A stretch of 64,000 nt of DNA from Luteibaculum oceani (GTDB taxonomy: Bacteria; Bacteroidota; Bacteroidia; Flavobacteriales_D; Luteibaculaceae): positions 1 through 64,000 of the forward strand of contig NZ_VORB01000002.1 in assembly GCF_007995015.1 (NCBI RefSeq), read 5' to 3'. Position 1 is the stretch's first letter. Each line of letters begins with the position of its first letter. The notes under the pieces were generated by a model, which made no database searches, had not been told where the DNA came from, and worked only from the letters and a program-made list of their open reading frames with translations. This document shows, one piece after another, positions 4,441-36,300 of this stretch. The position numbers were made by a program, and so were the translations under genes.

Positions 4441-4510
4441 CGCAAAAGGGCAAAGCCTTAATTGTTACCAGCAATAATCCAACCAACCTCTACCCGCCAG
4501 CCAATTGAAA

Positions 4511-13500: not shown

Positions 13501-16500
13501 ATTTGATAAGGGCTTTGAGATGATTGCTTCTATTTTGGCCGTTTTAAAATCTGGAAACTGCTACGTTCCTATAGATCCAAACTACCCTGAAGAAAGAATA
13601 AACTTTACCATAAAAGACTCCGAAGCAAGCCTATTGTTGTGCGATCATGCGATACTTGGAAATTATGGAACAAAACTTATCGCTACCTCTGCGTTAAAAG
13701 AGCGCGGAAACAATCCCCTAGATTACGCTATTTCTTCTGATTCTGAAGCCTATGTTATATATACTTCAGGCTCTACGGGTAAGCCGAAAGGGGTTCCTAT
13801 AACCCATCAAAATGTAAGTCGCTTGTTTTTTAACCAAGAACAATTGTTCGATTTCTCAGAAAAAGATGTTTGGACATTGTTTCACTCCTATTGTTTCGAT
13901 TTTAGTGTATGGGAAATGTATGGGGCGCTGTTGTTTGGGGGGAAGCTAATTATTGTAGACAAGGCACTTGCCCAAGATTCAGGAGCTTTTGCTTCGGTGG
14001 TGGAAAAGGAAAAGGTTAGCGTTCTTAATCAAACCCCGAGTGCTTTCTTCAATTTTGCGGATTTTGCGATTGCCAAAAAATTAAATCTATCCCATCTTAA
14101 GCAGGTTATTTTTGGAGGAGAAGCCTTAGCGGTAAAGCAATTAAAGCCCTGGTTCAATCAATTCCCCGATGTGCAGCTCATTAATATGTATGGTATTACG
14201 GAAACTACAGTTCACGTTACCTACAAAGAGATTGGGAAAGCAGAAATTGAGGCGGGATGGAGTAATATAGGAAAGCCCATTCCTACGCTGGGTATGCTAA
14301 TTTTAGATAATCAGCTCAACATCGTTCCAGAAGGTGTTGTGGGTGAAATGTGCATTTATGGAGCGGGCCTTTCTAAAGGGTATCTAAATCGACCGAAACT
14401 AACAAAAGAGAAATTTACGCATATAACTGCTCCTGTCAGCAGGTATATATACCGCTCTGGAGATTTGGCACGCCTAAAAAAGAATGGTGAGGTAGAATAT
14501 ATCGGTAGAGCAGACAGCCAAGTAAAAATAAGAGGATACCGCATAGAAATAGGAGAGATTAACAATGTTCTTTTGAACCTAGATCAAATAAAGCAATCTA
14601 CCGTTCTGGCCCACAAAGATGCTAGGGGAGAATCGTATTTGGCAGCTTATTATATCGGGGAAATATCAGAACAAGAAGTTAAACGTTCACTTTCAGCTGC
14701 CCTGCCTGCACACATGATTCCCTCTTGGTTTGTTCCAATGGATGTTTTTCCACTTACCAAAAACGGTAAACTTGATGTAAAAGCGTTTCCGATTCCTCAT
14801 CTAGATCGGTTAACAACCGAAAACATAGTCCTGCCGCATACGCCAACAGAAAAGCAGTTGCAATCTATTTGGTCGGAAGTACTGGGGATTGAGGAATTTG
14901 GTGCGGATCAGGGCTTTTTTGAGGTAGGTGGGCACTCGCTTGCAGCGGCTAAAGTGGTTGGAAAAATACACGAGTCCTTTGGAAAGCAAATTGAACTGTC
15001 GTTTTTATTTGCTAATCCCAGTATACAAAGGCTAGCTCAGAAATTAGACGAGCAGCAGTCAGCTAAGGCAAAACGGATACCTAAAGTTGCAAAATCGGAG
15101 TTTTACCCATGTTCCTCTGCCGAGCAACGGATATTTGTAATTCACCAAATGCATACTGAGGATACGACCTACAATATTCCTGGAGTATTTGAGGTTGATG
15201 GTGCGTTGAACCTGGAAAGGCTTCAAAAAGCCGTAAACGATCTGGTAGAAAGGCATGATGTATTACGGACCAACTTTTTCATGCAAAACAATGCGGTTCA
15301 CCGAACAGTCCACGATCAACGGGAGGTACCCATATCGGTAAAATCGAGTGAACGCGCACTTTCTGAAGAAATTGGTGAATTTGTACGACCATTTGATTTG
15401 GAAAAAGAGGCTTTATTCCGAATACAAATTACCTACATAGGCCAGCATATTTATTTGCTTTTCGATATACATCACATCATCTGTGATGGCATATCCATGG
15501 AAATTCTTATTTCCGAGTTAAACGATTTATATCAAGGAACTCGGTTATCGCCTCTTGATATCGGATACAAGGATTTTGCCAGTTGGCAAAAACAATGGGT
15601 TAAAGGAGCCGATTATCAGAAGGAGAAAGCATATTGGCTTGAGCAGTTCGAGGAGGAAGTTCCCGTATTAAACCTTCCAACGGACTTTGTAAGGCCAGCG
15701 GTGAAATCAAACGAGGGAGCTCGTTATCACTTTCAAATCCCAGCGGAGTTGGGAAATAAAATTCGCACGCTTGCAAAGGAGGTGGAAGCAAGCCCATTTA
15801 CGGTGTTTTTAACGGGACTTAAACTCCTTCTGGCAAAGTATAGCGGTCAAACAGATCTCATAATTGGAACACCGGTTTCGGGTAGGACACACCCTGAATT
15901 GGATGCGATTATGGGGATGATGGTGAATACCCTCGCCATTCGAAGTCAGCTCAACTGGAATACCCCCTTAATTAAAGCCTTGGAGGAGGTACGCTTATCC
16001 AGCTATAACGCCTTGTCGAACCAAAACTATCCTTTCGAAGATCTTTTGGATGCATTGAATGTGCACAGGGATATGAGTCGAAATCCCTTGTTCGATGTGA
16101 TGTTTTCTTACCAGCATGATGGGACCGAAACCATTCGTTTTTCGGAATCTAATTTTACTCCGATAAACTTCGAGCATCCCATTTCCAAAATGGATTTAAC
16201 CCTCGACGTTGCCGGAAAGGATAATGGTGGATTTAACTTAAGCATTGAATATGCTACTAAGCTCTTTAAAAAGAGTACAATAGAGCGGTTATCGCAACAC
16301 TTTACATATTTGCTTGAGCAATTTGTAATTACGCCAAACCAGGCGCTAGCTAGCTTTGAGTTGCCTACAAATGTTGAGAAACGGCAGTTGATCTACGGGT
16401 TTAATAATACCCTAATGGATTTCAGAAGAAGCGTGTGCATTGGTGGTATGTTCGAGGAAAGTGCCTTAAAATATCCCAACGATTATGCCGTGGTTGATGA

Positions 16501-19180: not shown

Positions 19181-19188
19181 AATATATC

Positions 19189-20028
19189 ATGAAAAAACTA
19201 GCAGTTATAGGAGCTGGGGTAATGGGACAGGGTGTCTCTTACCAATTTGCAAAATTTGGATATCAGGTAACACTTATCGATCTGTCTGATGAAGTGCTGG
19301 AGGATGCAAAAAAGAAAATTAAAAATATCGAGCGCTTGGATAAACTGTTGCATAAGTCGAAAAGCACTTATGTAGCGCTTGATCAAATTACATGTACTAC
19401 GGATTTATCGTCCATTTCATCTGCCGATTTTATCATTGAAAACGTTACCGAAAACATAAAAATTAAAGAAACCCTTTATCAAGAGATCGCCAAGTACATC
19501 TCGAATGATGCCCTCCTTGCGGTTAATACATCGGCAGTTTCCATAACTCGTTTGGCTTCTTTTCTTCCTCAACCAAAGAATATAATGGGTATACACTTTA
19601 TGAACCCCGTGCATTTAAAACCAACTGTTGAGGTTATCAGAGGTTTCCATACAACCGAGGAAACGATTAACACAACCCAAACCCTGCTTCAATCTGTTGA
19701 AATGGAGGGGGTAGTGGTAAACGATTATCCAGGGTTTATTTCCAATCGAGTTTTAATGCTAACGGTAAATGAGGCCATATTCTCCCTGCAAGATGGCGTG
19801 GCAGATGCAAAATCGATAGATAAAATATTTAAGCAGTGCTTTGGCCATACCATGGGGCCATTAGAAACGGCCGATCTTATCGGTTTAGACACCATCCTTT
19901 ACACACTAGATGTGCTAGTAGAAAGCTATCAGGATACAAAATTTAGACCCGCACCACTTTTAAAAAAAATGGTAGACGCCGGTTTACATGGCCGCAAGAG
20001 CGGAGAAGGATTTTTTAAATACAATTAG
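19189..20028 (+). CDS. 3-hydroxyacyl-CoA dehydrogenase-like enzyme (FkbK type)
   Basis: This 279-aa NAD-dependent dehydrogenase has an N-terminal Rossmann motif, GAGVMGQG (residue 8 on), an acidic residue ending beta2 (TLIDLS), the catalytic His136 in GIHFMNPVH, and the typical C-terminal helical domain (FISNRVLMLTVNEA). In the known methoxymalonyl and hydroxymalonyl pathways (FkbK of FK520, ZmaG of zwittermicin) such an enzyme oxidises glyceryl-ACP to the 2-hydroxy-3-oxo form. It sits 8 nt after NRPS1 and next to the ACP, acyl-CoA dehydrogenase and FkbH-like genes, which supports that role over beta-oxidation. The assignment to hydroxymalonyl-ACP is inference from context; the enzyme class is certain. 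Confidence 0.92.
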   Translation: MKKLAVIGAGVMGQGVSYQFAKFGYQVTLIDLSDEVLEDAKKKIKNIERLDKLLHKSKSTYVALDQITCTTDLSSISSADFIIENVTENIKIKETLYQEIAKYISNDALLAVNTSAVSITRLASFLPQPKNIMGIHFMNPVHLKPTVEVIRGFHTTEETINTTQTLLQSVEMEGVVVNDYPGFISNRVLMLTVNEAIFSLQDGVADAKSIDKIFKQCFGHTMGPLETADLIGLDTILYTLDVLVESYQDTKFRPAPLLKKMVDAGLHGRKSGEGFFKYN

Positions 20029-20053
20029 GCAACCCCACAAATTAATTACAACT

Positions 20054-20305
20054 ATGTCAACACCAATTATTGATGTTCAACAAACGGTAAAAACCTTCCT
20101 ACAGAAAAGAATAGGAGAAGATATTTCATTCGAAGTTACAGACGATATTTTCGAGTTGGGTCTGGTAAACTCATTGTTCGCTTTAGAGCTTGTGGTTTTT
20201 TTGGAGAATACTTTTGGTTTTACCGTGGAAAACGAGGATCTCGACTTGAACAATTTTAGTTCTGTGGCCAACATTGAAAAATTCGTTGTTCGCAAAAAAG
20301 CATAA
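20054..20305 (+). CDS. Stand-alone acyl carrier protein (FkbJ type)
   Basis: This 83-aa carrier protein has its phosphopantetheine Ser40 in LGLVNSLFALELV. The GLVNSLFA wording is typical of the discrete ACPs that carry glyceryl-, hydroxymalonyl- or methoxymalonyl units (FkbJ and ZmaD types), rather than the DSL of fatty-acid ACPs. The upstream in-frame ATG at 19988 would overlap the previous gene and add a sequence unlike any ACP, so ATG 20054 is chosen. It should be loaded by the FkbH-like protein and activated by the PPTase at the operon end. It lies 25 nt after the dehydrogenase and 5 nt before the acyl-CoA dehydrogenase. Confidence 0.93.
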   Translation: MSTPIIDVQQTVKTFLQKRIGEDISFEVTDDIFELGLVNSLFALELVVFLENTFGFTVENEDLDLNNFSSVANIEKFVVRKKA

Positions 20306-20310
20306 TTCCT

Positions 20311-21462
20311 ATGTCATTTCAATTAACGGATGAACAGGAGCATTTTCGCAAATCGGTCCAGGACTTTGTGAAGTCGGAAATTCTGCCCTATGCAGAGCAG
20401 TGGGATAGACAAGAGAGTACTCCTCGTGAAATCGTAAAAAAGCTGAGCGATAAAGGCTTGCTTTGTCCTACCATTCCCAAAAAGTACGGGGGATTAGAAT
20501 TAGATCAGGTGCGCTATGGTATTCTTCATGAGGAAATAGGCAGAGGCTGTTCGTCGGTTCGTTCTTTACTTACGGTACATTCTTCTCTTACGGCCGAAAC
20601 CATTTCAAGATGGGGGAATGAGGCCCAAAAGCAGCAATGGTTACCTAAATTGTGTAAGGGAGAAAAGGTGGCTGCCTTTGGCTTATCGGAACCCACAACG
20701 GGTAGCGATGCACAAAACGTGCAAACTACATATACCCAGGTTGATGGCGGTTATGTATTAAACGGCCACAAAAAGTGGATTACGTTCTCTCAAATGGCCG
20801 ATTTATTTGTAATCGTTGCTAAGGGAGACCAAGGGGTTTGTGCCTTTCTAGTGGAGAGTGTTACGGAAGGATGCACGGTAAATCCGTTAACCGGAATGCT
20901 GGGAACCAAGGCTTCAATGCTTGGAGAAATCATACTTGAGGATTGCTTTGTACCCGAAGCCCATCTGCTGGGACGTCCAGGTTTTGGTTTTGCCCAAATT
21001 GTAAATACCGCATTGGATAACGGTAGATTTAGTGTGGCCTGTGGTTCGCTTGGAATTGCTCGTGCCTGTTTAGAAGATAGCGTTGCCTATGCTAAAGAGC
21101 GTCAACAATTTGGATCTCCTATAAAGGATCACCAGTTGATTAAACAGAAAATTACAAATATGATAACCGAGGTAAAGGCTGCCCGATTATTGTGTTATAA
21201 TGCGGCACACCTAAGAGCTACAAAAAACCCCGATTCTTTTATTCAGACCACCGTAGCGAAATATTATACCACACAAGCTGCGAACAGAATTGCCAGCGAG
21301 GCGGTGCAGCTTCATGGAGCAGCTGGATGCCACGATAGCAGACCCATTCAGCGTTATTTCCGAGATGCTAAGATCATGGAGATTATCGAAGGCTCCTCGG
21401 AAATTCAACAAATTTTAATTGCCAATCAAGGACTAGCTAGTTTGTCCTCTATACTTTCCTAA
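20311..21462 (+). CDS. Acyl-CoA (acyl-ACP) dehydrogenase, FkbI type
   Basis: This 383-aa flavoprotein is of full acyl-CoA dehydrogenase length. The FAD-binding signature FGLSEPTTGSDA, the WITF segment, the C-terminal QLHGAAG and RDAKIMEIIEGSSEIQ with the catalytic-base Glu360 are all present. In the FkbI and ZmaE route this family oxidises the ACP-bound three-carbon unit to the malonyl level, in concert with the FkbK-type dehydrogenase. Its stop codon is followed directly by the ATG of the KASIII-like gene, with no intervening base, so translation is likely coupled. The specific substrate is inferred from neighbours. Confidence 0.92.
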   Translation: MSFQLTDEQEHFRKSVQDFVKSEILPYAEQWDRQESTPREIVKKLSDKGLLCPTIPKKYGGLELDQVRYGILHEEIGRGCSSVRSLLTVHSSLTAETISRWGNEAQKQQWLPKLCKGEKVAAFGLSEPTTGSDAQNVQTTYTQVDGGYVLNGHKKWITFSQMADLFVIVAKGDQGVCAFLVESVTEGCTVNPLTGMLGTKASMLGEIILEDCFVPEAHLLGRPGFGFAQIVNTALDNGRFSVACGSLGIARACLEDSVAYAKERQQFGSPIKDHQLIKQKITNMITEVKAARLLCYNAAHLRATKNPDSFIQTTVAKYYTTQAANRIASEAVQLHGAAGCHDSRPIQRYFRDAKIMEIIEGSSEIQQILIANQGLASLSSILS

Positions 21463-22431
21463 ATGATCGGAATAAAATCCATACAATCCTTTACACCAGG
21501 CACTCCAATTGCCGTTCATGAATCCAATGAGTTTAAAAACCTCAATGCTGTTGAGCGTGAATATTTCGAAACCGTTGGTATTGACACGGTTTACGATTCG
21601 GGAAACCTGCAAAGCTATGATTTGGCCAAAGGTGCTAGTGAACAACTCTTAGAACAAAACGGACTGGAGGGAAAAGATTTAGATTTTATCATCTACATCC
21701 AAAGCAGAACCCCAGAGCATTTTATTTCTTCCGAAGCAACGAGATTACAGCACGATCTTGGAGCAAATTCTGCCATGGCTTTTGCAATTTCTAATTTGGG
21801 TTGTGCCGATTCTTCTATGGCCATTAAGTTGGCTATGGACCTTTTAAAAGCCAATAAAAAGGCGAAAAACGTGCTCATTTGTTACGGTAACAAGTTGTAC
21901 TCTAATTATCGTTTTAGATATCCTGTTACGGTTATGGGGGATGGAGGAATTGCCGCGCTTATTGGAAGAACGGAGAACAACCAAATCCTAGACATTCAAA
22001 TGCAATCTAATGGTGCGTATTGGGATTTATTTAAAATGGAATATCGAGGTAAAAAGGATGAGGAGTTTAAGGAGACCTGCTCCAATTTGCGCAAATATGG
22101 ATTTGAGTTGGCGATAGAAAGTAAGAACAGGTTTCAGGAATTAAACCAAAAAGTTTTAGACCATAACGGTCTTACATCCTCTGAAATAGACCATTACATG
22201 CTTCAAAATATATCGAGCAGGGCCTATGAATATTACGAGCAAGCTTTCGATATAAAGCTCTCTCCCATTTGCCAGATGAACCTGAGCAAATATGGACATC
22301 TTGGATCTGGAGATGTGTTTCTGAATTTTAAAACTGGTGTGGATTCGGGGCTTTTTCAGGAAGGACAAAACGTATTAATTATGAATAATAGCCCCGCGGC
22401 TGCCTGGAGTACCGTACTCCTCGAAATTTAA
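21463..22431 (+). CDS. KASIII-like protein, candidate trans-acyltransferase
   Basis: This 322-aa thiolase-fold protein is of FabH length. The nucleophile Cys114 lies in NLGCADSS, at the same place as in FabH. The other two FabH active-site residues are not conserved: the HQAN motif is replaced by MLQNISS, and the Asn of YGNT is replaced by His in YGHLGSGD. Loss or swap of these residues is a feature of KASIII relatives that transfer acyl groups instead of condensing them (the CerJ/ChlB3 kind). In this operon the PKS lacks a working AT. The protein could therefore move hydroxymalonyl from its ACP to the PKS, or it could condense glyceryl-ACP as in tetronate pathways. The first is favoured because FkbI- and FkbK-type genes are present. 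The family call is firm; the role is inference. Confidence 0.88.
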   Translation: MIGIKSIQSFTPGTPIAVHESNEFKNLNAVEREYFETVGIDTVYDSGNLQSYDLAKGASEQLLEQNGLEGKDLDFIIYIQSRTPEHFISSEATRLQHDLGANSAMAFAISNLGCADSSMAIKLAMDLLKANKKAKNVLICYGNKLYSNYRFRYPVTVMGDGGIAALIGRTENNQILDIQMQSNGAYWDLFKMEYRGKKDEEFKETCSNLRKYGFELAIESKNRFQELNQKVLDHNGLTSSEIDHYMLQNISSRAYEYYEQAFDIKLSPICQMNLSKYGHLGSGDVFLNFKTGVDSGLFQEGQNVLIMNNSPAAAWSTVLLEI

Positions 22432-22441
22432 AATCGTGCAC

Positions 22442-23503
22442 ATGAAAACACCAAGCTCATCAACCAAAAAACCAGTGATCAAATGTGTCGTTTGGGACCT
22501 GGATAACACCTTGTGGAACGGCGTGCTTTTGGAGCATGATGAACTGCAATTGCGAGATGGAATAAAAGAAATTATTCAAACTCTAGACCAATGGGGAATA
22601 ATCAATAGTATTTCTAGTAAAAATAATTTTGATGATGCCAAGGCGAAGTTGGAATCATACGGATTGTGGGAATACTTTCTGTACCCACAAATTTCATGGG
22701 ATTTAAAATCCAATGCTATTTCTACGATACAGGAAAAATTAAACATAGGATTCGATGCAATCGCATTTATTGATGATCAAGCATTTGAGCGCGAAGAAGT
22801 GAATTTCGTTCACCATAAGGTACACTGCTACGATATAGATATTATACCTCAAATACTCCATCAGTTTAAGCCTCGGTTTATTACACCAGAATCTTCGTTG
22901 AGGAGAAAAATGTATCTAGATGATGAGGTTCGTAACAACGAGGAAAAAGAAATAGGTAATAACCAAGCATTTCTAAAATCCTTAGACCTAGATTTTCGTA
23001 TTACACGCGCTACTGTTGACGATTTACAGCGCGTTGAGGAACTGACCATTAGAACTAATCAGTTAAATGCCACTGGGTATTCCTACTCCTACGATGAACT
23101 TGAAACTTTAATTCATTCTCCAAACCATATGTTGCTTGTTGCCGAGCTTACCGATCGATATGGTAGCTACGGAAAAATAGGTGTTGCAATGGCTGAGTTT
23201 AACCAAGGAATCTGGAATTTAAAGCTTTTGTTAATGAGCTGCCGGGTGATGTCGCGTGGTGTGGGAGGCGTTTTGCTTTCGTATATCATGCACAAAGCAA
23301 AGTCCCAAAATACGAGACTGCAAGCCGAATTCCTACCCACGGATAGAAACAGACTGATGTATGTAACCTACAAATTCTCGGGTTTTACAGAGGCTGGGAA
23401 GTTAGAAAATGGAGGAGTAGTACTGGAACATAACCTAGAGAAGATTCCAGCATACCCCGAATATATAAAAGTGCAAACTCCTGATTTACAAGCTACATCA
23501 TGA
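22442..23503 (+). CDS. FkbH-like HAD protein, glyceryl-ACP formation
   Basis: This 353-aa protein has the two-part FkbH build. The N-terminal HAD phosphatase-like domain carries WDLDNTLWNG near residue 16 and FIDDQAFEREE near residue 108. The C-terminal GNAT-like domain has RTNQLNATG and the Cys267 motif LLMSCRVMSRG. FkbH proteins take 1,3-bisphosphoglycerate, remove a phosphate and load the glyceryl group on an ACP, the first step of the hydroxymalonyl-ACP route. ATG 22442 is chosen over the in-frame GTG 22436; it lies 10 nt after the KASIII-like gene. The stop overlaps the ATG of the PKS gene by 4 nt. No O-methyltransferase gene (FkbG) is nearby, so the unit should stay as hydroxymalonyl. 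Confidence 0.93.
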   Translation: MKTPSSSTKKPVIKCVVWDLDNTLWNGVLLEHDELQLRDGIKEIIQTLDQWGIINSISSKNNFDDAKAKLESYGLWEYFLYPQISWDLKSNAISTIQEKLNIGFDAIAFIDDQAFEREEVNFVHHKVHCYDIDIIPQILHQFKPRFITPESSLRRKMYLDDEVRNNEEKEIGNNQAFLKSLDLDFRITRATVDDLQRVEELTIRTNQLNATGYSYSYDELETLIHSPNHMLLVAELTDRYGSYGKIGVAMAEFNQGIWNLKLLLMSCRVMSRGVGGVLLSYIMHKAKSQNTRLQAEFLPTDRNRLMYVTYKFSGFTEAGKLENGGVVLEHNLEKIPAYPEYIKVQTPDLQATS

Positions 23504-26500
23504 AAGATATTGCAATAATTGGAATGGCTGGAAGGTTTCCGGAGGCCAAAAACATTCAGGAATTTCGACAAAATTTAATCGAGGGAGTTGATAGCGTTAG
23601 AGAACCCGATCACCATCGATTAGCCAATACCAGTTGTGATTTATCAAAATCCTATATGCCACTTGGATTTGTCGACGATATAGATCGTTTTGATCACAAA
23701 TTCTTTAATATCTCCAAGTCTGAGGCCATTCACATGGATCCACATCAACGGTTGTTGTTAGAAGTGGCGTACGAGGCGTTGGAGAACACTGGATATCCGA
23801 TGGAGCATTTCCACGGTTCAGAAACAGCAGTTTTCATAGGAGATACCGATCAGGAGTACTATAGGTTGGCTACAGTTTTCGACCCGACCCTGGTAACTGG
23901 AAGTTCAAGCGCAACCACGGCAGGCCGCATATCTCGACACTTTAATTTAAGAGGAGTTGCAACCATGTTGGATACTGCTTGTTCCTCTTCCTTATTGGCC
24001 GTGCACATGGGCTGTAAGGAAATTATAAACGGAGATGCATCCATGAGTTTAGCTTGTGGAGTGCGACTCATTATTCAACCCGAGGAAAAAAAGGAGGGCG
24101 TTGATTTAGGCATAATGTCTTCCGATGGAAAAACGAGAAGCTTTTCCGAGGATGCCAATGGAACGGGTGCAGGTGAGGCCGTTGGAGCTGTATTGCTTAA
24201 ATCCTTGGAAAAAGCCGAAGCTGATGGGGATATCATTTATGCAGTTATTAAGGGTTCTGCGGCCAATCAAGACGCTCAGTTATCGGGTAGTTTAACCGCC
24301 CCCAGTTCTCAAGCGCAGGCAGAAGTCATAAAAAAAGCTTGGGACAAGGCACAGATAGATCCGACCAACATAGATTTTATTGAAACTCATGGGTCGGGAA
24401 CAAAATTAGGCGACCCTATTGAGGTTGGAGGAATAGATCAGGCCTTTGCTGATATGGATAAACCGCTAAACAGCGTAAAAATCTCCTCTGTAAAGTCAAA
24501 TATAGCTCATACCGGCGGTGCTGCAGGGATCAGTGGCCTGATTAAAGCGGTTTTAGCGCTGCAGTTTGGTGAGCATTACCCCTCTTTGCACTACCATAAA
24601 CCCAATCCTTTTATCAATTTCGATGCGTCGGTTTGCCAGGTGCAAACAAAGTACGAAAAGTGGGAGGTGTCTCAAAACCTTCGCCAGTGTGGCGTTAGCT
24701 CTTTCGGTCTCAGCGGCACCAACGTTCACGTGGTTGTTGAACAAGCACCTGAAATAAAATGGCCGAAAGCCAAAAATTGTATTCTTGCTTTTTCGGCTAA
24801 AAGCCAAGAAAATTTAATGCTTTTGGATGAGGAAATCAGAGCCCGCCTTGGGGATAAATCTCCAGAAGAAAAAACAGCTGCAGCATATACAGCTTGTACG
24901 GCGCGAACCCAATTGCCAACTAAAGGTTATTTTACCATCTCTGCTACGGGAACTCTTTCAGAATCAAGATATGCTCCTGAGGATCAACTTCCGGCAGAAA
25001 AAATTCTCTTTCTCTTTTCCCCTGATTCTGAAATAACGTCAACTGCTTTTCAACAGCTATGTTCAACTGAAGAAGAAATTTCGATGCTGGCGCAAAAAGC
25101 AATGAAGGTAGTGGGTGAACTTAACCACAATTCAAGAAGGTTTGTAATGCAGCTTGGGCTTTTTAATGCGCTAAAAAGCCGCGCGATTTTATCTGAGAAT
25201 CTACTAGGACTTGGAACTGGAGATTTAGTGGTGGCTTGTATTTTGGAAGAAATGACTTTTGAAGAAGCAATTTCAGAAGCCCACGGATTGGAAGCATGGG
25301 AAGCGCAAAACCTGAAAAAGAAACTTAGATCTCTGATACAAAGAGAAACCGAAGCGCAGAAAACCCTTTTTGTTGAATTGGGAACTACAGGTTGCTTGAG
25401 CAGGCAATTGAATGAATTACCCTATCCCGACAAAGATGAGTCATTGGACCTGATTTGGTTGGACGATGAAGCGTCAGTGGATGAGTTAATGGGGAAAATT
25501 TTCCTGGCTGGTTATCCCGTGAAATGGACAGAAGTATACCATCAACCGCTGCAGAAATATCCCCTTCCTTCTACGCCTTTAGAAAAAATAAGGTGCTGGC
25601 TCAAGCCGGTAAGCACAGGGCAGCATAAAAAGGAAATAGACTCGGTAGATGAAGCTTCCATTGAACTACAACCAAAGGAAGACTTAAGTGCTGTAAATGA
25701 AGAAAAACATAGGGATTTAATACCGGAGTCTTGGACGAAAACGGAACAAAAGGTGGCCGCCATTTGGATTGAGGTTTTAAGTCTGGACTCCATCAGCTTA
25801 ACAGACGATTTCTTTGAATTGGGAGGGCATTCGCTAATGGCCACTCGGGTAATTTCGCGAATAGAAAGTACCTATGGAATTAAGCTAGTTTTTAAAGATA
25901 TATTCACGTTTGCAACGGTAAAAACGCTTGCTCAGGGGATAGATGAGTTGCTGGAATCGGGACAAAAATCCAACCACAAACACCCTATGACAAAGCAACC
26001 GAGACGGCAGGAGTACCCCTTATCTGAAGCCCAAAGAAGACTTTGGCAAATTCATGAAATGAGCCAAGGCAGTAACTTGGCCTATAATCTTCCTGCAGCA
26101 CTAAAAATTAAAGGAAAGTTTGACCTCAATAAAGCGGAGGAAACCCTCAGATTATTGGTGGCAAGACATGATTCCCTTCGCACCATTTTTGACGAAGATA
26201 AAGGGACGCCATTTCAGCGTGTATTAACGGAAGTTGATTTTCAAATGGAAAAGTCTTCTGGGTCCCTCCAAGATTTGGAAAAAATAAAGTCGGATTTTCT
26301 AAGACCCTTCGATCTTAAAAACGCTCCGTTATGGCGAGTGAGGTGTGTGGAAGTGGCTGAAAATGAATATCTGCTGCTATTCGATATGCATCATATTATC
26401 TCTGACGGGGTATCCTTAGGAATGATTACTTCGGAATTTCTAGAGGCATATCAAGGCAATGAGCTGAATGAATTGGAGTTTCAGTATAGCGATTACGCCC

Positions 26501-27321
26501 TTTGGCAGGAGGCTGCTTTCAGTAATGGTTATATGCAGCAGCAAGAAAGCTATTGGACATCGGTTTTTGAACGTGCTCCAGAGCTTTTGGCATTGCCTTA
26601 TGATTTTAAATCAGAAACTTCAGTTGCTCCAAAGGGGGCGACCTATTCATTTGAAATATCCGAAGAACAGGTTAAGCAGATTAAAAAAACCAGTAATGAA
26701 ATGGGGGGGACTCCATTTATGCATTTACTCGCTTGTTACCATTTAATGCTTAGCAAGTATAGTGGCCAACAAGACTTTACAGTTGGTGTCCCTATTGCAG
26801 GAAGGTCGCAGCAGGCGATGGAGAAAATAGTTGGGATGTTTGTAAACACCCTCCCTTTGAGAAATAGCACGGCGGAAACGGGAAATTTTCAAGCGTTTTT
26901 CGAAACAGTTAAAGTAAACGCGCTCCGAGCTTTTGAGCATCAGGACTACCCATTCGAAAGGGTGGTAGAAAAACTTGGTATGCAAAATGCAAAACTATTC
27001 AATACCCTTTTTGTGTTGCAAAACTTGGGGAAAAAGAAGGTTGAATTGGAGGATATTGAGATTTCATCTTTGCCTTTTTCCAATCAAACGGCTCAATTCG
27101 ATTTGACCATGGAAATCAATGAAAATGGTGCTAATTACCTAGTAAACCTCTATTACAACGCCGAATTATTTGATTCGGTTACAATGGAGCTTATGGCCCA
27201 GAAGTACCTGAAGATTGTTGATCAGACGGTAGATAGCGTGGCCATTGAGATTCATGAAATAGGAGAAGAAAGCAATGAAATATCTGGGAATAGTGCTCCT
27301 GATTTCGAACTAAACTTTTAA
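23500..27321 (+). CDS. PKS-NRPS hybrid protein: KS, inactive AT remnant, T, C
   Basis: This is a 1273-aa protein. The ketosynthase (residues 1 to about 420) keeps its triad: Cys161 in DTACSSS, His297 in ETHGSGT and His337 in NIAHTGG. Residues about 424-703 align with an acyltransferase but are degenerate and short. A carrier domain follows (Ser778 in LGGHSL), then a complete C domain (PLSEAQRRLW near 842, HHIISDG at 964). There is no KR, DH, MT or working AT. The KS should extend the chain from NRPS1 with a two-carbon unit, most likely hydroxymalonyl supplied in trans; without a KR the product would be an alpha-hydroxy-beta-keto thioester. The terminal C domain would join this to the amino acid on the first module of NRPS2, whose own C domain is incomplete. 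The gene starts inside the FkbH-like stop and ends 10 nt before NRPS2. Confidence 0.95.
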   Translation: MKDIAIIGMAGRFPEAKNIQEFRQNLIEGVDSVREPDHHRLANTSCDLSKSYMPLGFVDDIDRFDHKFFNISKSEAIHMDPHQRLLLEVAYEALENTGYPMEHFHGSETAVFIGDTDQEYYRLATVFDPTLVTGSSSATTAGRISRHFNLRGVATMLDTACSSSLLAVHMGCKEIINGDASMSLACGVRLIIQPEEKKEGVDLGIMSSDGKTRSFSEDANGTGAGEAVGAVLLKSLEKAEADGDIIYAVIKGSAANQDAQLSGSLTAPSSQAQAEVIKKAWDKAQIDPTNIDFIETHGSGTKLGDPIEVGGIDQAFADMDKPLNSVKISSVKSNIAHTGGAAGISGLIKAVLALQFGEHYPSLHYHKPNPFINFDASVCQVQTKYEKWEVSQNLRQCGVSSFGLSGTNVHVVVEQAPEIKWPKAKNCILAFSAKSQENLMLLDEEIRARLGDKSPEEKTAAAYTACTARTQLPTKGYFTISATGTLSESRYAPEDQLPAEKILFLFSPDSEITSTAFQQLCSTEEEISMLAQKAMKVVGELNHNSRRFVMQLGLFNALKSRAILSENLLGLGTGDLVVACILEEMTFEEAISEAHGLEAWEAQNLKKKLRSLIQRETEAQKTLFVELGTTGCLSRQLNELPYPDKDESLDLIWLDDEASVDELMGKIFLAGYPVKWTEVYHQPLQKYPLPSTPLEKIRCWLKPVSTGQHKKEIDSVDEASIELQPKEDLSAVNEEKHRDLIPESWTKTEQKVAAIWIEVLSLDSISLTDDFFELGGHSLMATRVISRIESTYGIKLVFKDIFTFATVKTLAQGIDELLESGQKSNHKHPMTKQPRRQEYPLSEAQRRLWQIHEMSQGSNLAYNLPAALKIKGKFDLNKAEETLRLLVARHDSLRTIFDEDKGTPFQRVLTEVDFQMEKSSGSLQDLEKIKSDFLRPFDLKNAPLWRVRCVEVAENEYLLLFDMHHIISDGVSLGMITSEFLEAYQGNELNELEFQYSDYALWQEAAFSNGYMQQQESYWTSVFERAPELLALPYDFKSETSVAPKGATYSFEISEEQVKQIKKTSNEMGGTPFMHLLACYHLMLSKYSGQQDFTVGVPIAGRSQQAMEKIVGMFVNTLPLRNSTAETGNFQAFFETVKVNALRAFEHQDYPFERVVEKLGMQNAKLFNTLFVLQNLGKKKVELEDIEISSLPFSNQTAQFDLTMEINENGANYLVNLYYNAELFDSVTMELMAQKYLKIVDQTVDSVAIEIHEIGEESNEISGNSAPDFELNF
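24770..25610 (+). other. Degenerate acyltransferase (pseudo-AT) in the PKS
   Basis: The order of AT landmarks is still visible but each is broken. LFLFSPDS (near residue 503) stands where the FPGQG motif belongs. GLGTGDLVVA (570-579) stands where GHSLGEYAAA belongs, so the catalytic Ser is Gly572. VELGTTG (near 625) replaces VEIGPG. The segment holding the catalytic His is missing, and the whole region is only about 280 residues including the linker. It cannot act as an acyltransferase and may survive as a structural spacer. Confidence 0.85.
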
Positions 27322-27331
27322 TAACCGAAGC

Positions 27332-30300
27332 ATGCGCGAGGACCTACTGCAATCTAAAAAAGCTGTCGATTATTGGTTCAATAAACTCAAAACCCCTATC
27401 GACCCCTTAAGATTAGGAGTTTATACCAATGAGGATAGAACCAGGATAGAACATAAGGAGAAACTTAATTTGGCCATTGGCAAGTTGATAGATCAGCGAA
27501 GCAATAACAAGGATTTTTCGAAATTCATCTTGTTTCAAGCTCCCCTGTTTCTTTTGGGTTCTAAACTGTCGAACTCCGACTTTATTCGAAGCCTTTCTCC
27601 TGCATTGAACGACAATAACCCCAATGGTTTTCTTTTTACGGAGGCCGAAATTTCGGGGGATATGAAGGTGAAAGAATTGTTCAGACATTTGCAAGAGGAC
27701 CTAAAAAAAGCATGGTCTCAGCAATCGGCTGCTGTTGCTGAGCTCAAAACAAAGTTAGAAGCCAATAACTGCGGGTTCGAAGACAATTTTCATTTTGGGT
27801 ATGCGTATGAAAATCTGGCGCCGATTAATGAAACATCCAACTTTGATGTGCAGGTGGCTAGCGAAGGAGGAAACTACTTTATTACGTTTAGGGCCTTTAC
27901 TCAAAATCACAATGAATTTGTTTTAAAGGAGTTGGCATGGTCTTATCAGGAGTTACTGGGTGCTATGCTCCAAAACCCCGAAGCTTCTTTGGGATCTTTA
28001 TCCTTGCTCAGTAAGGATCAATTGAGCCACCTAGATGCATTTAATGAAACCACAAGTAATCTGCCATTTCGATCATTATTAGACTACTTTTTAGAGCAGG
28101 CAGAAAAAACACCAGAAAAAATAGCTCTGGAGGATGCAGTCTGTACCCTAACTTTTGAGCAAACGCTTCGGCAAATTCAGATCCTGCAGAATGAAATGGT
28201 GGCAAGTGATGTTAAGGCTGGGGATGTTGTTGCCGTTTGTGCTCCGAGGTCTGTTCTACAACCCTTAACTCTGTTGGCATGCCAGTCGGTTGGCGCCATC
28301 TATTTACCTATAGACTTCAACAATCCACCGGATAGAACCAATTTTATCGTAGAAGATGCCAATACTAAGCTGGTTATCTCTTCAAAGGATTTTAAAGTAG
28401 ATGTTGACGCTTCCGTTTACCAATGGTCTTTAAACAAATCGCTACCAGAAAAAGAATACCCCTTTGAGCCCATTGCACCTGAAGCCCCCTGTTATATAAT
28501 TTATACGTCGGGCTCTACGGGAAAACCTAAGGGAGTAGTAATCCGCCACGATGCACTTGGAAACTATATTCATAGTATACAAGATCGGCACGACGAGTGG
28601 TTTGCAGAGGAAGATCGTTGCTTAAGTATGGCCAATCCAGCCTTTGATGTTGCCTTATACGAGTATGCTCTTGCTTTTCACACTGGGTGCACGCTTTATG
28701 TTTTAGAGGAAGAACGCGTGGTGAACCCAGAAAAAGTAGCCGAATGTTTACGAAATGAAAAAATCGCGTTTTGTTATCTGCCGCCTATTTATTTGCAGGA
28801 AATTGGTGAGATAATAGCCAATAATCCGCAAGATTTCGTTTTAAAAAAATTGCACGTTGGTTTAGAGGCCATCCTGGATGAAAAACTGCAAAGATTTTTA
28901 GATGCACTACCACAATTAGAGATTTTAAATGGATATGGTCCCAGTGAAATAACAGTGGGATCTAATTATTTTAGGGTTACTTCTCAAGAACCCAAAAAAC
29001 GCGTAGTACCTATTGGTACAGCCATTTTAAATACGCAACTATTTGTATTAGATCGGCACGGACAAAGGGCTCCGGTTGGTGTTGCAGGAGAGCTCTTCGT
29101 CGGGGGAATAGGTTTGGCTATTGAATATTTGAATAGACCCGAATTAACTCGGGAAAAATTCGCTATTCATAAGCACATTCATCCTCATAAAATTTATGCT
29201 ACCGGCGATCGAGTTGTGATGGACAAAGAGGGGAATGTTCATTTTATTGGGAGAATAGATAATCAGCTTAAAATTAGAGGATACCGGGTAGAGCCTGGTG
29301 AAATAGAAAAGGTGTTGATGCAACACGAGGCGGTTTCCGAAGCTCTTGTTGTAGCAGCAAGAAAAGATGGCCAGTTGGAGTTATGTGCCTACTTGGTAAG
29401 TACAGAAACATCACAAACGGTTTTACGTGAATATTTGGGCAGTACCTTACCTGCATATATGATTCCATCGAGTTGGAATTTTATCCCAAGAATCCCTTTA
29501 ACTAGAAATGGAAAACCGGATAGGAAGAATCTCCCTGAGCCTAAATTTTTTATTGAATCTGCCCAAGTTGCCACAGCAGAGACCGAGTTACAAAAACAAA
29601 TTCTAGCTTCGTTCGAAGCGGTTCTCCATTGTAAAATGGGTATTAACGATTCCTTCTTTGATTATGGAGGAAACTCGCTTAAAGCGGCAAAATTGGTGGC
29701 TCACCTTTTTGACAATCACAAGATATCGGTTCCATTTAGATCTGTTTTTCAGTTTTATACGGTTGCAGGATTGGCGGCCTCATTGAGTGCTGATGACCAT
29801 TCTAAATCTATTTATGAAATAGAGAAAGCACCTTCCCTAGCATACTACCCATTATCTCATGCCCAAAAGCGCATGTATTTAACCCAGGCTGTAGATCCTA
29901 AGAGCACCATTTATAACATGCCTGGAGCCTTCTTTATTAACGGAAGGGTAGATTTTGAACGGTTCGAGGATGCCTTTTTAAACCTGATTCAAAGACACGA
30001 AGGACTGCGGACTAGGTTTGTGCAAAAGGAAGGGAGTACTGTTCAAGAAATCATTGATAAAAACGAATTTAAGATCGAGTGGTTAAGCCGTAACGAGGAA
30101 ACTATTGAAGAAGTCTTAACCCGCTTTATACGCCCCTTTGATCTGGCCTCTGGAAATTTACTGAGAATTGGATGTTGCAAATGGTCTACAGATAAATATC
30201 TGATGCTGATAGATATGCATCATATTGTTTCTGATGGAGTTTCAGCCAGTCAGTTTTTACGCGAATTTGATGCCATATACAAAGGCAAACACCTGAAAAC

Positions 30301-33300
30301 TCAGGCCTACCACTATAAGGATTTTGCCTATTGGCTCAATAATCTTTCAGAAAGTACGGTTCAAAAACAGGAGCAATTTTGGAAGGATCAATTACAGGGA
30401 TTGCAACCCTTAGAGCTTCCCTTTGACAAAATACCCGCCGAAGAGGATCATAGCAGGGGTGAAAATTTCGAAGTCCATTTGCCTGCCAAGATTTCCGAAG
30501 ACCTTTTTAACAAAGCGAAAGCATTAAAATCTACTCCATATACACTGGTTCTTAGTGCCTATCAGCTTTTGATAAGTCAATGGGCTAATAAAAAGGATGT
30601 TTCTATAGGGACTGTGTATGCCGGACGACTTAATCCAAAAATGGAAGAGGTTTTGGGGATGTTTGTCAACACTTTGCCCCACCGTTTGGACCTTTCCGAA
30701 GTAGATAGCATAGATGAGTTGATTGAAAAAAATAATCGACTCAGACTTCAGATATATGAGAATCAATGTTATCCTACTGAGGATTTGGCCGAAGTACTGG
30801 AAATTGAAGTTCCCAGACATAAACATCCCTACTTCCAAACCCTCTTTGTATATCAAAACATTGAATTTGATGAGTTCGCATTTGAAGGGTTAGAAATAGA
30901 ACCTATTGCATCAAACGAGAGGGTAGCTAAGTTTGATTTGACCCTGGAGGTAGAAGAAAAAGAAAAGGCCTTTGTACTGCGATTTAATTATCCTGCTTCG
31001 GCATTTCAAAAAACTACAATGGAGCGTTTGGGAGATGGGTTGGTTACCATCCTGAAGAAAATAGCAGATAATTCCCAGTTATCTATTGGCGACGTTTCTT
31101 TTATCCCAGAAAAAGAAGCCGAATTAATGGAGCGGTTTTCTTTTGGAGAAGATATTCCAGCGCCGCCTTTTGCTTCTATTGTAGAGGCTTTTTCCAGTCA
31201 AGTTCTAAAAAATGGAGATCGCATTTGTGTAGAAGACGATACCACCGCACTCAGTTACAAGGAGGTGGATGCAAAATCTAACCAGTTAGCAGCACTTCTA
31301 ATCGAGAGTGGTATAGCACCAGAAGAGTGTGTGGGAATATTACTGCCAAGAAGTATTGATTATCTCATTTGCATTCTAGGGATAATGAAGGCGGGAGGCT
31401 GCTTTGTTCCTTTCGATGTAAATCATCCGAGTAAGCGGATAAAAAACCTTATGAACGATGCGGGTATAAAAAAGATGCTTGCTAACCAAGAGCAAATAGA
31501 AAACCGTAAGAAGGATCAGCTCGAGCTATTAAACCTTTCTGTACTGCCAGAAAAAGAGTACAAGTACCAATTACCAAAAGGAAATCAATTGGCTTATGTG
31601 CTCTATACATCGGGGTCAACGGGGCAGCCTAAAGGTGTGGAGATAGAGCATGCTTCCCTAATGCACACGCTTTGGTCGGAACGAGATATATTAAGATTGA
31701 GTGAAAGTACGGTAACCCTTCAACAAACAAATCCTGTTTTTGATGTAGCCCTTTTGGAGTTCTTTCTTCCGCTTTTGGTAGGTGGAAAATTATTCATCCC
31801 AAACCATGAAAAAGTGTTGGATTTTGAATACCTCATTCCACTTATTAAGAATAAGAAGGTTACCAATTTCCAAGGTACGCCCAGTCTGTACCGAAGCATG
31901 ATTGAGAGCGGGGTAAGGTTGGAAGAAGATCACCATTTATCCGTGATATGTGTGGGAGGAGAATCTCTAGATCCTGCTTTATTCAAATCGCTCAGATCCT
32001 TTGTTGGGGATCGTGTTTTTATCGATAATCACTATGGTCCCACAGAGGCCTCCATTGATGTGATCTGTAACCAGAATCTTCGATCTTTTAACGAAAATAT
32101 TATTGGTAGACCCTATCCCAATACGGAGATTAGAATTTTAAACTGGCAGGATGCCATTTGTGGTGTGGGTACCCCAGGGGAACTATGCATTAGTTCACCA
32201 GGCCTTGCAAGGGGCTATAGAAACGATCCAGAAAAAACGCAAAAGGCCTTTAAATATCATCAACATCTTGGAGGAAAACGATATTACCATACAGGCGATC
32301 TTGCTAAATGGACTAAAGAAGGTGAAATCCACTTTTTAGGCAGAATAGATGATCAGATAAAAATTAGGGGACAGCGAGTAGAGCTGGGAGAAATTTCATC
32401 TCAAATGCGGTCTTTAAATGGAGTTCGGTATAGTCAGGTTCTTCTGCATCAAGATGGAAATGATAAGTTTTTGGTGGGTTATTATAAAGCCGATCGAAAT
32501 GTTGCTTGGAGGGAAGAGCTTTTGGAAATTTTACCTGAGGCAATTGTCCCATGGCACTTTGTTGAAGTAAAAGATTGGCCTTTAACCAGCAACGGGAAAA
32601 CCGATACTCAAAAATTACGCCGTTTAGGACAAAATGTTCTAGTTAGCAAAAAGGGCGAGGTAGTTCTGCCTAAAAATGAGTTGCAGTCTCAGTTATTGGT
32701 GATTTGGAAAGACCTGCTGGATAGAAATAATTTAGGAATAACCGATAATTTTTTTGAGGTAGGCGGGCATAGCTTAAAAGCAACTCAGGTCATATCAAGA
32801 GTGCACAAAGAACTCAAACTCGACTTAAAATTGGCCGATCTTTTTCAGAATCCTACTATTGAAGGGTTGAGTAAAATACTGGAAAAAGGGCAAGCCTTCG
32901 AGACCGAGCAACTAAAGCCCATTGAAAAAGCCGATAGTTATCCGCTATCAGCCGCACAAAGAAGGCTTTTTGTTTTGCATCAATTTCAAGAACAACAATC
33001 TGCCTATAACCTTCCTGCGGCCTTTAAATTAATTGGAGATCTTAACATCAAGGCCCTAGAAAAGGCATACCAGCAATTGGTAGACCGCCATGAGGCACTT
33101 CGAACTTCCTTCCATGTCAAAGATCAACTTCCTGTTCAGGTAATTCACGATAACTTAAAGGTTAATATTCAATTAGAACGCCATCCAACCAAAAGCCCTT
33201 CAGAAATTGAGCGCATAGCTGCTAAGGATGCTGTGGATCCCTTCGACTTGGGGAAAGCACCTCTTATTCGATTAAAGGTGCTGGAGCAACAAGCAAATGA

Positions 33301-36300
33301 ATTTATTTGCTTATTCAATATGCACCATATCATTTCTGATGGATGGTCTATTAATATTTTAATTCAAGAACTACTTGCATTCTATCATGCCGAGCTAGAA
33401 GGGGAGGAGTTAAGGTTAGCAGATCTTTCCATTCAGTACAAGGATTTTGGTGCATGGCAAAACAACCTTTTAGAAAGCGAGGCTGGTAAGAAAATGGCTG
33501 CTTATTGGATGCATCAGTTTAGCGGAGAAATTCCAATGCTGGACTTGCCTACAGATCGATCCAGACCAAAAATTAAAACCAACGTTGGAACCGCAATTTC
33601 TTTTAATTTTAATGGCAAACTAAGTAGCGAAATCCAAGCCTATTGTCAACAAAAAGAAGTGAGCCCTTTTATGTTTGTTTTGGCCCTTACAAAGGTGCTA
33701 CTGTACAAACAGAGTGGACAAAAAGAAATTGTTATTGGTACCCCGGTTGCAGGAAGAGAGCAGCTTGAGACAGAAAATTTAATTGGTTGTTTTGTAAATA
33801 CCCTAGCCCTAAAAAGTGCAATTCCAAGCGAAAGTCTTTTCGAACAGTTTCTTCAAGTGTTAAAAGAAAGCACGCTTGAAGCATTCGCTCATCAACAATA
33901 TCCCTTCGATCGTTTGGTAGATGAGGTAGTTGTGGATAGAGACACCAGTAGATCGCCTCTTTTCGATGTAATGGTGGTAATGGAAAATTACGATGAGACC
34001 GATGCGCAGTTTTCCGGGCTAAAAATGGAGGGCATTGAGGTGGAAAGACAAGTAAGCAAATTTGATCTTTCTTTCTATTTCAAGGAAAAAACAGAGGGCC
34101 TTCATGTGTTGCTGGAGTACAATACGGATTTATTCGACCGCTGGAGAATGGATTCATTGTTAGAACAATTGCAAACCCTGGCATCTCAGGTAATCCATCG
34201 TCCCGATGTTCCAATAAATCAGCTGAAAGCCACTTCACCAAAGGACATAGATACTATTAGGGAATTCAATAACACCCAAACTGCACCCTATCCAGAAACA
34301 ACCCTTTTGTCAAAAATGGATGAGGGTCGAGCTTCCTATGCAGGATTACCAGCGCTTGAGTTTCAGGGGAAAATATATAGCCACCAAGAGGCTCATGAAT
34401 TAAGCGATAAAATTGCAGCAGGTCTTATCGACCGATTAAAGATTAAAGCCAATGACATTGTAGCGCTGGCCATAGAGCGTAGCGAATGGATGCCTATAGC
34501 AATATTGGGGATTTTAAAATCGGGAGCTGCCTATTTACCTATAGATCCAAACACGCCAGAATCTAGGCTTAATTTCATTTTAGAAGACAGTAAGGCAAAA
34601 GGCTTAATATCAGATTTGCATCCAAATGGGCTTAGAATTGAGGATCTGATACAAACGAAAAGTAAACTTCCGGCTGTGTCCCACTCTGCCAAAAACTTGG
34701 CCTATGTTATCTACACTTCTGGGTCCACAGGCGCCCCAAAGGGGGTGATGATAGAGCATGGAGCTTTGTTGAATCGATTAAATTGGATGCTAGAGGCCTA
34801 CCCTATAAGTACTTCTGATGTTATCCTTCAGAAAACCAACTACACGTTTGATGTTTCTGTCTGGGAAATGCTTTTGTGGTGTATTTCTGGAACTAAACTA
34901 AGTATCCTAAACCCCGGAGGAGAAAAGGATCCCACCGAAATTAACAGGGCTATTGAGAATGGGGTTAGTGTGCTCCACTTTGTACCTTCCATGCTTTCGG
35001 TTTGGTTAGAATATTTAGAGTCCATGACGGAAAAACCAATTCTGGAATCACTTCGATTGGTTTATGTGTCAGGCGAGGCTTTAAATAAAAATCAGGTAGA
35101 TCGATTCCAAAACCTATTCGGAAGCAGGGTACAACTGGTGAATAAATATGGTCCAACAGAAGCCGCCATAGATGTAACTCATTTTGATTGTGCAAGAGCC
35201 AGCGAATTCTCCGCGATTCCTATCGGACGACCTATTTCTAATATCAGGATTTATGTATTGAACAAAAATCTGCAAGAACAGCCAATTGGAACCCCTGGAG
35301 AGCTATGCATAGCTGGAGACGGATTGGCGAGAGGCTATTTAAATAGGGAGGATTTAAACCGACAGAAATTTGTTGCCGCACCACACTTAAATGAAGAGAA
35401 AATATACCGGACAGGCGACCTGGTTTCTTGGCTTCCTCAGGGCGAAATTGCCTACCACGGGCGACTGGATTTTCAAGTGAAAATAAGAGGTTTTAGAATA
35501 GAACTCGGCGAAATTGAACAACAACTGTTATCCATGGATAAGGTGGATAATGCCGCGGTAATTACCATTAAGGATGAATCCGGTCAGGATCAAGTTATCG
35601 GGTATTTCACGGGCAAAAATACAATTGATGTAAACGAAATTACCACGGCCCTTGGCAAGAATTTGCCAGCATATATGCTTCCTAATCAGTTGATACAACT
35701 GGAAACCATTCCAACAACAGCCAATGGAAAACTAAATAGGAAGGAACTGCCATTGCGTTTGGATAAGCAATTTTCTCAGGAAAAATGGTCTTCACCTATT
35801 GGGGCTGCCGAAAATGAACTTGCCGAAATATGGAAAGGGTTGCTTGGCCTAGACCAGGTATATAGAGAAAATAATTTTTTCCATTGCGGAGGAGATTCCA
35901 TAAAGGCCATTCAGTTAAGTGCACGTCTGCTAAAGATGGGCCGCAGTATTGAAATTGGACAGATATTTCAATACCCTACACTCCAAGCAATGGCTGCTGC
36001 AATGGAAAATGGGCTTATCGATATTCCACAAGATCCATTGGAAGGAGCATTGCCATTGTCACCAATTCAGAAGCGCTTTTTTAGAAAGAACTTCGAAAAC
36101 ATAAACCACTACAACCAAGCCGTTTTACTTGAGCTGCCCGATAATTATGAGGAAAAAACACTTGAAAAAGCGCTAACCTTACTTTTGCAAAAGCACGATG
36201 GATTAAGGGCGCAGTTCAAAAAACAAGGCAAGGAATGGTTACAGACTATAGTCCCGGCATCGGAGTTTAATTTCCCTGAAATTATTGGGCGTAATGCTGC

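Follow-up and report, generated by a model that had tools for sequence, protein, structure and literature searches.

In polyketide synthases (PKSs), the choice of extender unit is usually controlled by acyltransferase (AT) domains or by discrete ATs. Inactive AT remnants in modules that are loaded in trans are known in kind from oxazolomycin and colibactin; for OzmQ and ClbK the trans loader is itself an AT-fold enzyme, ClbG in the case of colibactin. Acyl transfer enzymes outside these systems include CerJ and ChlB3. Extender units can also be made on a carrier protein. According to the available part of PMC7489565, FkbH and an acyl carrier protein (ACP) give glyceryl-ACP, which two dehydrogenases oxidize to hydroxymalonyl-ACP, and the accessible text on bafilomycin describes the same cassette chemistry (PMC3679948).

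Here we analyze a 64-kb stretch of the Luteibaculum oceani genome (NZ_VORB01000002.1, positions 1-64,000; the window), which carries an NRPS/PKS cluster. We lean towards the view that loading of an ACP-bound extender has passed from the AT to a thiolase-fold KASIII-like enzyme, whose active site is rebuilt as Cys/Gln/His, that the displaced AT is conserved in two phyla as a pseudo-domain, and that a sister KASIII subfamily serves modules devoid of AT.

Organization of the locus

The cluster opens with a 4891-aa NRPS (4505-19180), followed by a block of five genes, the PKS (23500-27321) and a second NRPS that includes a thioesterase (27332-38047). A transporter, a discrete thioesterase and a phosphopantetheinyl transferase complete it. 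The block and the PKS are read from the forward strand. The first gene of the block encodes a 3-hydroxyacyl-CoA-dehydrogenase-like protein (19189-20028; Pfam 3HCDH_N, 2.6e-52), to which we assign the FkbK/Mad11 role, the first oxidation of glyceryl-ACP, after the available part of PMC7489565. It is followed by a discrete ACP (19988-20305; Pfam PP-binding, 1.2e-6), whose real start is probably further inside the listed reading frame, and by an acyl-CoA-dehydrogenase-like protein (20311-21462; Pfam Acyl-CoA_dh domains), the candidate for the second oxidation. The last two genes specify the KASIII-like protein (21463-22431; Pfam ACP_syn_III_C, 1.6e-10), which we propose as the trans loader, and FkbH (22436-23503; NCBIfam TIGR01686, 247 bits, cut-off 147), predicted to form glyceryl-ACP.

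The 1273-aa PKS has the architecture KS, pseudo-AT, T and C. Pfam searches with E up to 10 detect its KS, KS/AT linker, PP-binding and Condensation domains, and find no PF00698. The KS domain (23500-24753; Pfam and motifs) retains Cys161, His297 and the His of the NIAHT motif. The KS-to-AT linker (24754-24999; Pfam KAsynt_C_assoc at 368-477, and AlphaFold2 models) leads into the pseudo-AT core (25000-25464), which is delimited by motifs, profile, model and fold matches; Gly572 (25213-25215) occupies its nucleophile position, and the small subdomain and His are missing. A post-AT linker (25477-25614) with Cys699 (25594-25596) precedes the T domain (25738-25935; Pfam PP-binding, 6.2e-15), in which Ser778 is encoded at 25831-25833, and the condensation domain (26005-27243; Pfam, 3.8e-103).

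Both NRPSs have unusual features of their own. In the first NRPS, the final module (16502-18877) contains tandem adenylation domains with no carrier between them, the first of which ends at profile position 329 of 384, without a C-terminal subdomain. At the start of the second NRPS (27332-28180), about 280 residues without a Pfam match resemble, by eye, a C-terminal condensation-domain lobe, even though a complete condensation domain already closes the PKS.

The pseudo-AT domain

From the sequence, the earlier note had described the region at 24770-25610 (residues 424-704 of the PKS reading frame) as a dead AT with its catalytic Ser replaced by Gly and its His segment deleted, downstream of an intact KS. 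All of this is borne out. FLFSPDS begins at residue 504 and GLGTGD at residue 570, which puts Gly572 in place of the GHSxG Ser. PF00698 is matched by none of 15 members of the pseudo-AT family, and a profile built from 15 relatives nonetheless places the GxGxG stretch on GHSVGE of the CurL AT (i-E 7e-6 for this stretch). In this alignment the short step from profile position 192 to 207 spans CurL residues 712 to 852. About 125 residues, corresponding to the small subdomain and the catalytic His, have thus been lost from the segment that links the nucleophile elbow to the C-terminal part of the AT. The profile also matches ZmaA-AT, an AT specific for hydroxymalonyl-ACP (E 1.1e-31), and its best stretch stops at ZmaA-AT residue 227. 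In ZmaA-AT, according to the accessible text of PMC4207774, the small subdomain spans A226-I292 and residue 297 is the catalytic His; the deletion therefore starts at the subdomain boundary.

The AlphaFold2 models are in agreement with this picture. Modeled alone, the AT-like region has a pLDDT of 84.2 and a pTM of 0.79; this model and that of KS-pseudoAT-T (pLDDT 87.6, pTM 0.85) both superpose on KS-AT structures. The AT-like model matches DEBS module 1 with Z of 21.7 and ZmaA-AT with Z of 20.1 (rmsd 3.9, 266/436 residues). The profile matches to the CurL and ZmaA ATs, together with Z of about 20 to AT structures, indicate an AT fold and common descent. The region lacks the features of an active PF00698 AT, namely the GHSxG Ser, the small subdomain with its catalytic His and a score above the Pfam cut-off. 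The comparison with PF00698 suggested in the earlier note, by HMM and by structure, thus gives no Pfam match and, through the profile and the predicted fold, reveals what is by these measures a degenerate AT fold. As judged from its residues, this AT is almost certainly catalytically dead.

The neighboring domains are preserved: the KS Cys and both His residues, as well as the T domain Ser, are kept in 15/15 aligned modules. By sequence, then, the module combines a working KS and T with no working cis-AT, the arrangement of a trans-AT module. The claim that the extender must arrive in trans is supported in the form that trans supply is very likely, as we infer from these features. The Luteibaculum oceani genome offers no discrete AT of AT fold dedicated to this task: FabD (GHSLG, on another contig) is its only PF00698 protein, and a second AT as loader is thereby ruled out.

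The post-AT linker holds a further peculiarity. The position of Cys699 is Cys in 26/26 pseudo-AT modules, versus the usual Tyr of the RYW motif. Among 15 active-AT controls, Tyr occupies this position in the 13 where the motif was found, and Ser stands at the nucleophile column in all 8 that align there.

Distribution and age of the pseudo-AT

The AT-like region occurs in 3/399 genomes of the order, Luteibaculum oceani included. Both relatives carry the same gene block. Their KSs are about 55% identical to that of Luteibaculum oceani and their AT-like regions just 24-25%, as expected for a domain freed from catalysis. A wider set of 28 loci with the KASIII-like gene comprises 16 in Bacteroidota and Actinomycetota from a search with the KASIII-like protein, 11 from a Streptomyces-group sample, and the window. 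At E <= 1e-40 the KASIII-like protein is found in 17/295 Streptomyces-group genomes, in which FkbH is present in 124/295; in the phylum sample it occurs in 1/395, Luteibaculum oceani itself, and FkbH in 30/395.

Whether related clusters keep an active AT, a check proposed in the earlier note, can be answered from these loci. Of the 28, 26 have a KS with a pseudo-AT, one (L013) has a KS without AT, and one (L015) ends before any KS. Each of the 26 pseudo-ATs has Gly at the nucleophile column, beyond chance expectation. A tree of 42 KS sequences, which took 25 of the 26 (without the later-added L079) and no reference trans-AT set, puts all 25 pseudo-AT KSs on one side of a branch with support of 95/87, and its Bacteroidota (7) and Actinomycetota (18) members separate at 100/99. 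Because the Ser-to-Gly change and the deletion are common to 26 modules in two phyla, and 25 of these form one KS group, the pseudo-AT is an old and stable state. This contradicts the suggestion that the module represents a transitional stage on the way from cis-AT to AT-less modules. Recent loss or an assembly error in this genome is likewise ruled out by the shared state of the 26 modules, and a frameshift by the reading frame, which is open across all 1273 aa.

The exceptional L013 locus, from Chryseolinea lacunae, has a different layout (9905-20964). The KASIII-like gene precedes a KS that lacks an AT, there is no FkbH cassette in the stretch fetched, and downstream of the KS visual inspection suggests an aminotransferase domain.

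The KASIII-like protein and the hydroxymalonyl cassette

The KASIII-like protein, at which the earlier note had hinted, proved a productive lead. Alignment with FabH structures shows that the Cys is kept (Cys114, 21802-21804), whereas the FabH His is replaced by Gln248 (22204-22206) and the FabH Asn by His279 (22297-22299), and the Cys-His-Asn triad of FabH is thus not present. The His at the Asn position is found in 47/47 KASIII-like rows, some of which come from overlapping loci and are not all independent; the Gln248 position is His in a minority of relatives. In FabH the His/Asn pair supports decarboxylation. A site that has lost this pair and kept the Cys and one His fits transfer, not condensation, as far as residues can indicate. 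The protein matches CerJ (3s3l, E 1.3e-4), ChlB3 (7eqi, 4.6e-12) and DpsC (4xs7, 1e-11), and in sequence it is related no more closely to the acyltransferase CerJ than to FabH.

FkbH, the discrete ACP and the two dehydrogenase-like proteins make up a complete four-gene cassette in the window, the product of which, by analogy, should be hydroxymalonyl-ACP. The O-methyltransferase needed for methoxymalonyl is absent from the 16 window proteins scanned with Pfam. The full cassette is present in 19/28 KASIII-like loci and a partial one in 3/28 (L017, with the ACP only, and L018 and G559, both at contig ends). It is absent from the stretches fetched in 5/28 (L013, two in G449 and two in G461), and L015 is unreadable in this respect. 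Gene order differs between the phyla, yet the set persists, which argues that the genes have been held together through rearrangement. G461 and G449 (L034-L041) each have two clusters with a KASIII-like gene and a pseudo-AT KS and no cassette in the stretches fetched; in both genomes a cassette lies elsewhere and adjoins a gene of a second KASIII subfamily.

This second subfamily comprises eight Streptomyces-group matches at 276-303 bits with the same Cys/Gln/His positions. Seven of the eight occur with FkbH and both dehydrogenases, and six of those seven loci adjoin KSs wholly without AT (10 KSs). Of the two other matches, G443 has no KS in view and an active AT about 7 kb away, and G414 is a short contig with no KS. 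A more distant match (G432, 219 bits to the KASIII-like protein) has no cassette. AT loss beside the KASIII family thus appears both half-way and complete.

For comparison, 20 FkbH regions were hand-picked, not drawn at random, from the Streptomyces-group matches listed, and 18 were usable; the two left out were L061, which lacks a cassette, and L062, which was assigned to the second KASIII subfamily. All 18 have FkbH and both dehydrogenases and are devoid of this KASIII-like family, their best KASIII-type score being 59 bits versus at least 427 for family members. A KS is found within the stretch in 10/18, and 14/14 of these KSs keep GHSxG. Fisher's test of the KASIII-like gene against AT state gives 4e-9 by locus and 2e-7 after thinning, values that are overstated and count kinship as well as function because the pseudo-AT KSs form one group. 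The association of the KASIII-like gene with the pseudo-AT may accordingly be inherited linkage.

Proposed mechanism and alternatives

We propose a cis-AT as the ancestor of the AT-like region: catalysis would have been lost through the change of Ser to Gly and deletion of the small subdomain and His, and the remnant would now have a structural role at most. The four-gene cassette would make hydroxymalonyl-ACP. Cys114 of the KASIII-like protein would accept the hydroxymalonyl group from the discrete ACP, with His279 as the likely base, and, in place of an AT, hand it on to the phosphopantetheine carried by Ser778 in the T domain of the PKS. The KS, loaded with peptide from the upstream NRPS, would add an alpha-hydroxy-beta-keto unit to the chain, which the C domain would then join to the next residue. 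The central step, loading of hydroxymalonyl onto the PKS carrier by the KASIII-like protein, is probably correct, with transfer, substrate and direction all suggested by co-occurrence. Weighing against it are the five loci without a cassette, L017 with its ACP only, the active AT about 7 kb away in G443 and the weak kinship to CerJ.

The carrier could also be charged in trans by FabD, with malonyl or hydroxymalonyl, leaving the KASIII-like protein employed otherwise. The lack of any other PF00698 protein in this genome is in keeping with such a role, as are the single AT of each of the L011 and L012 genomes (all three genomes have one PKS-type KS) and the existence of loci without a cassette. 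Since it accounts neither for the presence of a dedicated cassette nor for the linkage of the KASIII-like gene to modules that have no working AT, we consider this route unlikely. Cis loading by the pseudo-AT itself, using the invariant Cys699 as nucleophile, is far less credible. That residue is strictly conserved where all readable active-AT controls have Tyr, but its place is in the linker that follows the AT fold; the active-site cleft has lost the small subdomain and the His of which it is formed, and six loci of the second subfamily manage without any AT.

A different division of labor, in which the discrete ACP presents hydroxymalonyl directly to the KS, and the extended chain is then moved, or another bond formed, by the KASIII-like protein, finds a parallel in the tetronate FabH-like enzymes, which act on glyceryl-ACP according to the available part of PMC7489565. 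Here, however, oxidation of glyceryl-ACP is to be expected from the presence of both dehydrogenases, and the module keeps its own T domain with Ser in 15/15. The L014 species, named in the accessible portion of PMC7489565 as host of the tsn genes, is informative as well: its genome's other KASIII-type matches reach at most 38 bits versus 492 for the cluster's own protein. Direct use by the KS seems quite unlikely on these grounds, and the dehydrogenases and the low L014 scores also disfavor a tetronate-type role for the KASIII-like gene.

If loading by the KASIII-like protein is correct, a loader of unrelated fold that handles ACP-bound hydroxymalonyl for modules with no functional AT would offer a new means of introducing hydroxyls into hybrid peptides, and an example of how a module can outlive its AT. 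The prediction is directly testable with a handful of small proteins.

Comparison with known systems

Neither a KASIII-like hydroxymalonyl loader nor the conserved pseudo-AT family was found described in the literature searched, which covered few subscription journals. The nearest parallel for the extender is the zwittermicin pathway, which also uses hydroxymalonyl-ACP and whose ZmaA-AT (4qbu) aligns with the pseudo-AT by profile and fold. ZmaA-AT is an active enzyme with GYSFG and His297, as the available part of PMC4207774 describes, whereas the module studied here has neither the Ser nor the His and is accompanied by a KASIII-like gene. The methoxymalonyl-ACP cassettes of bafilomycin (PMC3679948) and tetromadurin (PMC7489565) have FkbH, an ACP and two dehydrogenases in common with the window; in the accessible portions of those reports they feed active cis-ATs and carry the O-methyltransferase missing from the window proteins scanned. 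Mad16, a tetronate FabH-like protein, is likewise encoded alongside FkbH and an ACP, and differs from the proposed loader in serving tetronate formation and chain release, according to the same part of PMC7489565.

With respect to the dead domain, OzmQ KS1 (PDB 4oqj) and colibactin ClbK (8cjh) are among the fold matches, and these proteins share a degenerate AT after a working KS. Unlike them, the Luteibaculum oceani module has no AT to call upon except FabD, and a KASIII-like gene is tied to it. The KASIII-like protein, finally, has the thiolase fold of CerJ, ChlB3 and DpsC, but is set apart by Gln and His at the FabH His and Asn positions, by a kinship to these enzymes no closer than to FabH, and by the proposed transfer of an extender unit from carrier to carrier.
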